Part shown: positions 34,385 through 39,712 of the stretch, one piece after another | Numbering within the stretch: position 1 is the stretch's first letter | How the letters are laid out: the number at the start of each line of letters is the position of its first letter | IMG/VR virus record: IMGVR_UViG_3300034103_000330 | Coordinates: 1-45,345 of that record | Source of the DNA: a virus | Length of the DNA stretch: 45,345 nucleotides | Reading direction: 5' to 3' (one strand) | The notes under the pieces: model-generated | Database searches by the model: none | The model's input: only the letters and a program-made list of their open reading frames with translations | What the model was told of the DNA's origin: nothing | Made by a program: the position numbers and the translations under genes

Positions 34385-37300
34385 TTATCTCCTAGTCTTC
34401 TTCAGATATTCAAGCGGCGACTTCTTGGCCGCAGGAGGCAAGTCCTTAGGCTTGGCTGAACGATGGTATGCGCGGATCTCGTGCATCATCTTGTACAGCT
34501 TTTCACTGCCGGCCTTTGTTGATCCGTTTCCAAGCGCTGCTACAACATCTGCAGGGAACACAAACTCTCCATCTGCCAGCATGGCAGGGATGTCATCAGA
34601 CTGCCCGTCTCCAGGCCCGCTTACCGCGGCACCTCGTCGGAAGTCTTGACGAAGTTTACCTCCTGCGGCCATCAGTGGGGGCGTCATTCTTGAGGCAAAC
34701 CCGCCCGCGGCAAACTGCCATGGGTTTTTCTTCTCAGCTTCTGCGCTGTCAGGTTCGCCGAGCAAGTTCCCTACGTCAGAGGACTTGCCGTAGCTGAAGT
34801 AATTAGTCATTGATGATCCTTGTGAGGGTTTGTCTTCCTCTGAAACCTTAGACGAGGCAGACGGCGCTGCTCCAACCATCTTCAGATACTTCTCCAGTGG
34901 TCCTTCAAAAGTAGCTTTCTCCCCCCCAGTCTGCAACGGGGAAACTTTTGGTAGGCCCTCCTCTGGAGCAGGCGCTGAGGGCGCTGGGGGCGCTGTAATT
35001 GTCTTTGTGATGTTGGTTATTTGCGGGGCAGGGGTTGGGGGAAGGTTGATGATGAACGGAGGGGCGTTCCCCGTTCCCGTACCAGTCCCAGTACCTGTCC
35101 CCGTACCAGTATCAATTCCTGTACCAGTTCCCGTATCAACCCCTGTATCTGTACCAGTTCCAGTCTCGGTTCCAGTACCAGTCCCCGTATCAACTCCTGT
35201 CCCAGTCCCTGTACCAGTATCAACCCCTGTACCAGTCCCCGTATCTGTTCCCGTACCCGTGCTTGTTCCAGTGCCAGTCCCCGTATCAACCCCTGTACCA
35301 GTGTCTGTACCAGTGCCAGTCCCCGTATCAACCCCTGTACCAGTGTCTGTACCAGTTCCAGTACCAGTGTCAATCCCGGTTCCAGTGCCTGTGTCGATGC
35401 CAGTTCCGGTATCAATACCAGTTCCTGTATCCGTTCCAGTACCTGTGTCTATACCCGTGCCAGTATCAACCCCCGTTCCTGTACCAGTCCCTGTATCGAT
35501 GCCAGTTCCCGTACCCGTGTCGATGCCTGTTCCGGTGTCAGTGCCGGTTCCAGTATCGAACCCTGTACCTGTATCAGTACCCGTACCTGTACCCGTATCA
35601 GTACCCGTACCTGTCCCTGTACCTGTATCAGTCCCTGTACCTGTATCAGTCCCTGTACCAGTGTCAGTACCAGTACCAGTACCCGTACCAGTACCCGTAT
35701 CAGTACCCGTACCTGTATCAGTCCCTGTACCAGTGTCAGTACCAGTACCAGTACCCGTACCAGTACCCGTATCAGTACCCGTACCTGTATCAGTCCCTGT
35801 ACCAGTCCCTGTATCAACATCTAGTCCAGTTCCAGTAGATACGCCTGTACCTTCATCAATATAAATCTTCGATCCAGTACCCGTTCCTGTTCCGGTGTCA
35901 GTCCCTGTACCCGTACCTGTACCTGTATCAGTTCCTGTTTCAGTTCCAGTTCCGGTATCAGTCCCCGTGCCTGTACCAGTATCAGTGCCTGTACCAGTAT
36001 CAGTGCCTGTACCAGTATCAGTGCCTGTACCAGTCCCTGTACCTGTGCCAGTATCTGTTCCTGTACCAGTGCCTGTTCCTGTACCGGTATCAACATCTAG
36101 TCCAGTGCCTGTCGAGACACCTGTACCTTCATCAACATAAATCCTGGATCCAGTACCTGTCCCAGAGCCACTGCCGGAACCCGTTCCAGAACCGCTACCT
36201 GTTCCTGTGCCCGTACCAGTGTCGCTTCCAGTTCCTGTTCCAGTCCCAGAACCACTACCAGAACCCGATCCTGACCCTGATCCGCTTCCAGAACCACTAC
36301 CGGATCCTGAACCACTTCCTGATCCACTGCCAGAACCAGTCCCCGAGCCACTACCAGACCCAGTACCGCTTCCGGACCCAGTGCCAGATCCTGTACCTGA
36401 TCCCGAACCCGACCCAGAACCACTACCAGAACCACTGCCGGATCCACTACCAGAACCGGATCCGCTTCCAGAACCGCTGCCAGAACCCGATCCTGAACCG
36501 GAGTCAGACCCTGAACCACTACCGGAACCTGAACCACTTCCGGATCCAGTGCCAGATCCTGTACCTGATCCCGAACCACTGCCGCTACCAGAACCGGAGC
36601 CACTACCAGAACCAGATCCTGAACCGGAGCCTGTCCCTGAACCACTTCCTGAGCCTTCATCTCCGAACTTCCCGGTGGTGTACCAACTCAGCGCACGGTC
36701 ACCGATGTTGTATCCGTTGCTAGACAACTGGCCAATGATGTCTTTGATCTGGCCAGGAGAAGCGCCCAGGCGGCCTAGCAGTTCAATGTCTGACTTATCA
36801 AAGACAAAGATGCGCTTGTCAAAGTTACCTGTATACCCTTCAAACAGCTTGGATGGATCAAATTTGGGCTCGCCGCCTGTGTAACCACGGGCGGACATTT
36901 CATTGATAACGTCTTGTGGCACCCCTGCAGCACGAAGCTCATCAGGAGTTACTCTGTTCTCGTTGAACCATTTAAGTTTCTGTTGTTCATCAAATCTATC
37001 CCATCCAACAGGCAACATTGAACCTACATTACGTCCGCCTGTATCTCCTCCAGTAGTTCCTCCAGTAGTCCCCCCAGTTGTACTTCCACCTGTTGTCGTA
37101 CCGCCAGTGGTTGTTCCACCAGTAGTTCCACCCGTAGTGCCTCCGGTGGTTCCTCCAGTAGTTCCACCTGTCGTACCGCCAGTGGTTCCTCCAGTGGTTC
37201 CACCTGTCGTACCGCCAGTGGTTCCTCCAGTGGTTCCACCTGTCGTACCGCCAGTGGTTCCTCCAGTGGTTCCACCTGTAGTGCCTCCAGTCGTCGTGCT

Positions 37301-39712
37301 GCCACCAGTACCGCCTGTAGTCGTTCCGCCAGTACCTGACGTTGCAGCAGAATCTGCCGACGTACCGCTAACGTTTCCTGTTCCAGCAGCAGTGCCGCCA
37401 GTCCCTGCCGCTGTACCGCCTGTCCCAGCAGCAGCGCTTCCAGTTCCTGCAGTAGTAACACCCGTACCAGCATCGTTTACTGATCTAGTACCAGTGTCGC
37501 TTCCAGTTCCTGCAGTAGTAACACTTCCAGTCCCAGTAGCCGCGCTTGTACCTCCCCCAGTACCAGTAGTCGTTACTGGATTAGTTGGAATTGTGGGAAG
37601 AGTAATGTTCTCATTCAGCCTTGGCGTCTCAAGCTCATTTCCAACCTTGACTGTGGTATCGGCATCTCTGATGCTATTTGGATCCGTAGTATCAGTTGGA
37701 TCGCCAGTGGCATCTTGTATGCCAAGACCCAAGTATTGGTTTGCAAGGTCTGTCAGTAACCTGTCTAACCGCTCGGAAGAATTCTCAAGTTGAATGTTTG
37801 GGACAGGGAACGGTGGGGCAACGTAAGAAGTCCCAGTATCACTTTGCTTTTTGTTTGAATAGAAGTCCTTTTCCGGGATGATTGTCATCATGACCGGGCC
37901 AGGATTTTCTTTTTCAACAATTACCTTGGCGTCATAAAGATACTTGCCCAAGCCAACTGCTGGGCCACCAATTGCTGCCGCTGCAGCATCTGAAGCTGTT
38001 GGTGGTGTTAACCCTATTACTCTTGTGATTCTTGGGTCAGCCGCCGCTACAAGAATCTTTAGCTCATTATCAGTAGGCGCTCTTTGCGCTTGAGATTCAA
38101 AAGCCTTAAGAATCTCTCTATATGAGTCTACATACTCAGGAGTTGAGAAATGTGACGCATAAGCATAATAAGGCTTGGAAAGGTCTGCATTAGCAAGCGC
38201 CTCTACAAGTTGCTTGTACTGGTCTGCCTGATCAGACATTGCCGTTGTCAGCGGCTTCTTACTGTCGGCAATCGCCTTGTTGAAGTCAGTAGTGGCTTGA
38301 CCTATCGCCCATCTGACGGCCGCTTCAGACAGATCTCCGCCAGCAATACCAGCACGCACCAACGAAGAGACAAGAGACTTGACCTTTGGATCAGCGTTCT
38401 CAACACCCGGAATCTGACTGGCACCATAGGACACCAAGCCTTCCATGGCAGCGTTCGACAAGATCTTTGCTGGATCTGTCTCTCCACGTACTACTTGGTT
38501 GACAGAAGATAGAACCGCATCCTTGACAGACTGGTTCAGTTTGTTCCACCCAGGTATCTTGCCGACAGCAAAATCTACCGCGTTTTGGGTTACCGCACCC
38601 TTGATGGCATCCCCAACATTTTGACCCAGGATCCCTGCTCGAGTAGCGCTGCTAGCAACATCACTGATCAGCTTCAATCCTGCAGGGTTGTTGAAGTACG
38701 CACTGGCAGCATTGCCAAAGAACTTGCCAACCTCCGCCCCCGCCCAAGAAGCAACGGACGATTTCACAGCAGCCGCTAGATCGCCACCATTCATCACTGT
38801 GTTGACAATCGTATTGCCAATAGCCGCATTGACCGCAGCGCTGGCGCTGATGTTCATGGCTTGAGTGATCGTCGCACCCAACGTTGCACCGACTCCAGAA
38901 ACAGTTAACGCAACACCAAGTGCTGCTATGGCTTCAGGCGGGACATCACTGGAAGATGCCCAAGTTGGAGTGAAACCAATCAACCCCCCAGGCCCATTGC
39001 GCGTAGGTGCAAACTTCAAATGGCCTTTGCCATTAGGATCCCAAAGGTCAAGAACTCCTATGCCAGAGGTATCAAGAGGATCTGCCTTGATGCTTGTTGC
39101 TTTGGGATCGCTGGGGATGTAGCCAATCGGCTTGCCATCGTAAGCAAGGTATGTGTACGTCTCAAATGGGGCGCCGCGATAGTTCTTGAAGTCAACTAGA
39201 TCACCTACACGCGCTCTTGAGTCACTTCCGGTGTATCTTGCAGTGCTCCCAATAGAGAGCTTTTCCATATCCTGCACACCAAGTGCGGACAGTTGCTGAG
39301 CAAGCGCGTTTGCGCGATCTTGCGACGAAACACCAAAGATAGAGTCAGATACACCACCCGCTTCCCAACTGCGTTTGAGCTGACTAGCAAGATTTGAATA
39401 ATCTCCAGCGGGCTTGGAAACTTGTGTCGGTGCGGGAGTCGGGGCAGCAGCAGAGGCAGGAGACGGGGACGGGGCAGAGGCAGGCTTACCTACCGTGTAC
39501 CCCATGTGGTCGTAGAAATACTGGATTTCTTCCGGGGTGGCGTAAGGCGCTAGTTGCTCAGGCGTTATTCCCTGTTGGTTGAAATACTGGACCTTTTCGT
39601 CGCCAGTAAACCCGCCCCAGCCCGTGGGAACGCTTGACGTCCAGTCTGTTGTGGAATCTCCCCCGAGATCAACTGAATTCTCAATCTCGTATTCGGTGGA
39701 AGACCTTGGCAT
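34385..39712 (-). CDS. Giant Gly-Thr/Gly-Ser repeat virion protein (1775 aa)
   Basis: Residues 29-78 form a small helical domain ([20 protein letters not shown]...[17 protein letters not shown]). About 250-700 is Ala-rich and helical. About 790-895 is a (TTGG)n tract. A second copy of the N-terminal domain ([20 protein letters not shown]...GYTGG) lies at about 900-950, with a weaker third copy at about 965-1000. About 1020-1188 is (GS)n and 1188-1548 is (GT/DT)n. The C-terminal 170 residues are globular, including AAGGFAS, MAAGGKL and [20 protein letters not shown]. It sits among tail and ejection genes, so it is probably an injected or tail-surface protein. The repeats are coded by degenerate hexamers, indicating selection on protein. 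Confidence 0.85.
35076..36650 (-). repeat. Coding Gly-Thr / Gly-Ser tandem repeat tract
   Basis: About 1.6 kb of degenerate 6-base units, coding GT/DT in the lower-coordinate part and GS in the higher. Synonymous codons vary from unit to unit while the amino-acid pattern holds. Two short inserts (IYVDEG/IYIDEG...) interrupt it. Confidence 0.9.
35813..36166 (-). repeat. 277-bp segmental duplication within the repeat tract
   Basis: A non-repeat insert coding [20 protein letters not shown] at 35813-35888 recurs at 36090-36166 as [20 protein letters not shown], offset 277 bases. The two differ at several silent positions, so the duplication is not recent. Confidence 0.8.
37161..37268 (-). repeat. 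Three perfect 36-base tandem copies
   Basis: Copies at 37161-37196, 37197-37232 and 37233-37268 are identical. Each codes three TTGG units of the giant protein. Identity at the DNA level, unlike the divergent GT tract, points to recent slippage or expansion. Confidence 0.9.

Follow-up and report, generated by a model that had tools for sequence, protein, structure and literature searches.

Siphophage tape measures, the ejection proteins of podophages and the cargo protein gp45 of crAss001 are the described systems closest to the protein studied here. In phage JBD30, the tape measure has its C-terminus in the core of the baseplate, and the rest of the protein has been proposed by the authors of that work to leave and form a channel (PMC11445458). 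Podophage ejection proteins have been described as mosaic (PMC8954989). In crAss001, segments of the cargo protein gp45 have been resolved in the capsid as well as in the tail, and cargo has to unfold in part on its way out (PMC10172136).

The window, i.e., the whole stretch of DNA analysed here, is a 45,345-base IMG/VR virus record for which DNA similarity was sought among cultured phages and none was found. It encodes a giant protein at the coordinates and with the residue make-up given in the original prediction, within the following arrangement (window coordinates; aa positions refer to the giant protein):

39988..42288, minus strand: virion structural protein, phrog_3287
39737..39988, minus strand: small protein of 83 aa directly upstream of the giant ORF, with a homologue in 71 of 80 loci
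34385..39712, minus strand: giant ORF of 1,775 aa, open throughout
39488..39628, minus strand: W-module 1 (aa 29-75), conserved in L004-L016
38219..38917, minus strand: Gly/Ala-rich core domain (aa ~266-498) from an iterated HMM, predicted to be helical with low confidence
37034..37576, minus strand: tract 1 (aa 713-893), Gly/Thr/Ala followed by (TTGG)n
36656..37033, minus strand: mid module (aa 894-1019), a second copy of the W-module type
36146..36655, minus strand: tract 2 (aa 1020-1189), (Gly-Ser/Thr)n
35069..36145, minus strand: tract 3 (aa 1190-1548), (Gly/Asp-Thr)n and two 18-residue units
34388..34660, minus strand: C-terminal domain (aa 1685-1775), nearly invariant and with a tape-measure-like motif, within the region that follows tract 3 (aa 1549-1775)
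33348..34382, minus strand: DNA ejection protein homologue (phrog_4287) directly downstream of the giant ORF
31659..33347, minus strand: cassette protein of 562 aa, fold unassigned, with a homologue in 64 of 80 loci
30265..31662, minus strand: SLT transglycosylase or internal virion protein-like (PF01464, E 3.5e-19)

The surroundings of the giant gene are strongly conserved among its relatives: a phrog_3287-like virion gene lies upstream in 59/60 loci, and in 64/68 the start of the ejection protein homologue lies no more than a few bases from where the giant ORF ends. The block is closed in the window by the SLT transglycosylase gene, whose product also has matches among the internal virion and lytic tail families of PHROG. 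The cultured Caulobacter phage RLK shows the same arrangement, in which a phrog_3287 gene is followed by a small gene, the gene of a 580-aa protein, a phrog_4287 gene, an unknown gene and an SLT-type gene, and a similar order ending in an SLT gene is found in MW202545, a record titled "Siphoviridae"; an ejection block combining an ejection protein with a peptidoglycan hydrolase is thus present in the window, in RLK and in MW202545. Among the window ORFs scanned, which included only part of the small ones, the genes identified were those for portal, capsid, phrog_3287, ejection and SLT proteins, and none was a major tail tube, tail terminator or distal tail gene. With tail-tube genes thus not recognised, we regard the virus as a podophage, an assignment by gene content only. 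The phrog_4287 ejection protein itself has short Gly-Thr runs near its C-terminus, so that GT-type disorder recurs in this phage.

Relatives of the giant protein are numerous. While its N-terminal part retrieved 15 loci, a scan with the C-terminal 154 aa returned at least 594 related contig stretches, of which 80 were kept as loci, and all 80 contain an ORF with the C-terminal motif. The protein therefore belongs to a large and apparently undescribed family. As a whole it has no PHROG or Pfam family match, its N-domain gave no match in a tblastn search against phages, and Pfam scans of giant relatives yielded only coiled-coil-like, mostly sub-threshold matches along with DUF4214 and DUF7750. 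Among metagenome-assembled contigs with the C-domain, one, with 61% identity, falls into a Limnohabitans bin and others carry proteobacterial labels; these labels are only a hint at the host, because phage contigs can be misbinned.

The C-domain is the part that links this family to described proteins. Across 45 aligned sequences its last ~90 residues are almost invariant, and all 45 match PHROG tape-measure families at E about 1e-6. Its motif resembles gp16 of PDB entry 8zdo, a siphophage tape measure, at E 7e-6 (8rk3 is weaker), and the domain matches cultured phage proteins of which many are annotated as tape measures; the similarity to tape-measure families is confined to this domain. In the 8zdo tape measure the motif lies mid-protein and in two copies, so that a C-terminal anchor does not necessarily follow from it. 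A short motif of the YA.GG(F/L)V type precedes the C-domain of the giant protein, and similar ones were seen in three other proteins of the phage (451-1446, 8475-11975 and 12191-14263, all on the minus strand); it may be a signal for docking or packaging that these proteins share.

Besides the C-domain, the Gly/Ala-rich core is the recurring element of the family. An iterated HMM built from it matches 55 sequences, and we rejected a mere Gly/Ala bias as the cause because the model had no matches in reversed or block-shuffled copies, nor in 652 other ORFs of the loci. The core is predicted to be helical, at an AF2 pLDDT of about 44-64, and a single strongly hydrophobic stretch (aa ~261-280) stands out. 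As the AF2 models are poor, with mean pLDDT values of 58 for the C-domain and 45 for the N-domain, the fold and any membrane activity of the giant protein are putative.

Between core and C-terminal motif, the relatives differ greatly. The two are 300 to 2,443 aa apart, with a median of about 1,308 aa, the length of the proteins varies several-fold, and the stretch from motif to C-terminus is constant at 70-80 aa; with a length that is not constant, the spacer is no strict ruler. Low-complexity tracts were detected in 31 of 52 distinct complete proteins (21 have none at the threshold used), and of the 33 tracts in proteins that have the core, 29 lie between core and C-domain. Their make-up follows lineage, including T/G, T/P, P/V/E, S/P, T/N and A-rich types as well as Ala-Pro; S/T-poor tracts fill the corresponding spacer in L035, L084 and L094, and coiled-coil-like matches occupy part of it in other relatives. 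The tracts thus resemble a flexible spacer that stays in the same place while its make-up and length are free to change. With P/V/E or Ala/Pro tracts at the corresponding place in relatives, the evidence favours the entropic spacer, which had originally been put forward as the second choice.

Modules that repeat between disordered linkers, in a gene adjoining tail genes, could also belong to a surface adhesin or fibre whose tracts are stalks presenting the W-modules to the cell. We consider this quite unlikely, however, because it is the C-terminus of the protein that is constant and the part that recurs on the N-terminal side is rich in Gly and Ala, because the gene heads an ejection cassette in nearly all loci, and because no fibre, lectin or adhesin family was matched. 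A further copy of the W-module (WYNQNQVTPDQLL..) is found in another large protein encoded downstream (L010:8427-11591 and L015:4618-7527) and for this reason may be mobile within these phages.

In the giant protein itself, low-complexity sequence amounts to 710 residues, 181 of the TTGG/GT type and 529 of the GS and GT/DT types, the latter forming the main block and bearing out the more than 500 residues announced for it. Tract 1 consists of 40% T and 39% G, tract 2 of 49% G, 40% S and 10% T, and tract 3 of 42% T, 36% G and 12% D, with arrays scoring up to 398 in Tandem Repeats Finder. The description of Gly alternating with Thr, Ser or Asp is accurate for the GS block and has to be amended for tract 3, where Thr stays constant and Asp stands mostly in Gly slots. 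Antisense to tract 3, the hexamer repeat incidentally creates an open frame of 344 aa (PVPVPV..) at 34830-35864 on the plus strand.

Codon usage speaks to how this pattern came about. Synonymous codons do vary between units, as had been predicted: third-position entropy within Gly and Thr codons is 1.4-1.9 bits, and 156 of the 280 GGN/ACN codons of tract 3 have a third base other than the modal one. When each slot of tracts 2 and 3 is taken separately, the entropy at codon positions 1 and 2 is 0-1 bit. With these two positions nearly fixed and the third close to random, the protein pattern is maintained, in line with the selection that had been postulated. The near-identical phage L003 has zero substitutions in the giant gene and differs from it by indels of -72, +72 and +42 bp, every one of them in frame and inside tracts. 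Free frameshifting of the tracts in close relatives was looked for, and all tract indels seen keep the frame, though repeat units whose length is a multiple of six make in-frame indels weak evidence by themselves; the case for selection on the pattern is made more strongly by the codon positions. Exact repeat-unit counts are not to be trusted either, since two contigs of one metagenome (L002 and L017) end or start within a tract and warn of assembly effects, and copy-number differences between contigs may in part be assembly errors. The tracts were probably born by slippage of hexamer (dipeptide) units, which would have been followed by synonymous drift under purifying selection on the protein pattern.

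Taken further, the same observations could make the tracts largely non-adaptive filler, that is, dipeptide microsatellites that grow by slippage and are tolerated in an already disordered linker. Their units are indeed dipeptides, copy number is the only difference in the giant gene between near-identical phages, composition differs in each lineage, and GT runs also occur close to the C-terminus of the adjacent ejection protein. The strong constraint on first and second codon positions and the recurrence of tracts between core and C-domain in many lineages nevertheless render this explanation unlikely.

The leading idea of the original prediction was a dense O-glycan acceptor in a phage that carries glycosyltransferases; in its wider form, the Thr/Ser arrays would be modified by enzymes of the phage or its host. 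This reading can draw on the Ser/Thr density of the low-complexity tracts, with S+T at 30% or more in 33 of 47 tracts and across lineages, on the retention of Ser/Thr identity despite third-base drift, and on the gene content of the window, which includes a nucleotide-sugar epimerase (21611-22591, minus strand; phrog_540, E 3e-69, and Pfam Epimerase) and two ORFs that are possibly glycosyltransferases. The glycosyltransferases ascribed to the phage are doubtful, however, as both candidates lack a significant family match: the product of 14416-15234 (minus strand) resembles NodZ (start) only at E 0.16-0.46, and that of 15231-15920 (minus strand) has no family match and contains an RDADSR stretch that we take to look like a GT-A DxD motif. 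These candidate genes adjoin the terminase, away from the ejection cassette, and both were found in one record of the same phage species only. Co-occurrence was assessed with the two candidate proteins and two Pfam families in records of which many are incomplete, and within this scope no dedicated glycosyltransferase was found to accompany the putative acceptor in relatives. The candidate enzymes are missing from 27 other records, several of which have T/G tracts; GT2 is present in one of 24 records, whose tract is of a short T/N type, and GT1 in none of the 24. The epimerase is confined among these 24 to its own species, being shared with the near-identical contig and absent from the 23 other related records. 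Together with the Pro/Val/Glu or Ala/Pro tracts and other S/T-poor sequence that relatives carry in the same spacer, this makes a sugar acceptor very unlikely. Even so, the Thr/Ser enrichment exceeds what a pure spacer needs, and with S+T reaching 30% in so many tracts their hydroxyl side chains, glycosylated or not, may have a role.

Read from sequence, the protein is composed of a Gly/Ala-rich core, a variable spacer with tracts and a nearly invariant C-domain of ~80 aa, and it is encoded in a conserved cassette. A constant C-terminus, a swappable spacer and a recurring core within an ejection cassette fit an anchored and tethered channel or ejection protein. We therefore propose, with a probability of roughly 60%, that the product of the giant ORF is the lead protein in the DNA-ejection cassette of a podophage and that its tracts are an unfolded, length-tolerant tether from the core to a C-terminal anchor. 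Such a protein would be stored in the virion and dock through its C-terminal domain to a conserved portal or tail part or to its ejection partners, and the core would enter the host envelope and help to form the DNA channel. The unfolded tether could thread a narrow portal or tail and would set the reach between anchor and core, in which case selection would act only on its flexibility, solubility and rough length. More tentatively, a leash-type ejection protein may be at work throughout a widespread podophage family: a C-terminal docking tag, nearly universal in the family, would stay with the particle, an unfolded, length-adjustable Thr/Ser/Gly/Pro tether would let a membrane-active core reach across the envelope, and the chemistry of the tether, possibly glycosylated in some lineages, would be tuned to the periplasm or wall of the host.

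What began as a curiosity of one contig has thus become a large uncharacterised family, defined by the C-domain, that is central to the block of genome-delivery genes in environmental short-tailed phages. By filling one spacer with different low-complexity tracts, many of its lineages have run a natural experiment on which properties of an ejection tether are essential and which are dispensable, and its near-invariant C-terminal signature should be useful for annotation.

Compared with described systems, the giant protein shares with siphophage tape measures such as JBD30 gp46 and 8zdo gp16 a large size, a motif of the GPGxGxSDxIPA.L..GEF type and the proposed role in genome delivery. It differs from them by its layout of core, spacer and anchor, by a motif that is almost invariant and near the very C-terminus, by a length that varies several-fold across the family and by a window in which no tail-tube genes were recognised. 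Like the ejection proteins of podophages (P22 gp7/gp16/gp20 and T7 gp14-gp16), its gene shares a block with the genes of an ejection protein and of a peptidoglycan hydrolase, and it is likewise built of mosaic, fast-diverging parts (PMC8954989); unlike the proteins of P22 and T7, to which the whole-protein PHROG and Pfam scans revealed no homology, it contains long stretches of low complexity and a C-domain of tape-measure type. The crAss001 cargo gp45, with its segments resolved in capsid and tail, is an analogy only, and low-complexity tracts like those of the giant protein are not described for it in the part of the report drawn on here (PMC10172136). RLK gp066c (OQ135106) has the same cassette position, a Gly/Ala-rich N part, a Pro/Thr/Gly linker and the same type of C-terminal motif, but comprises only 580 aa, has a short linker and is missed by the core HMM.
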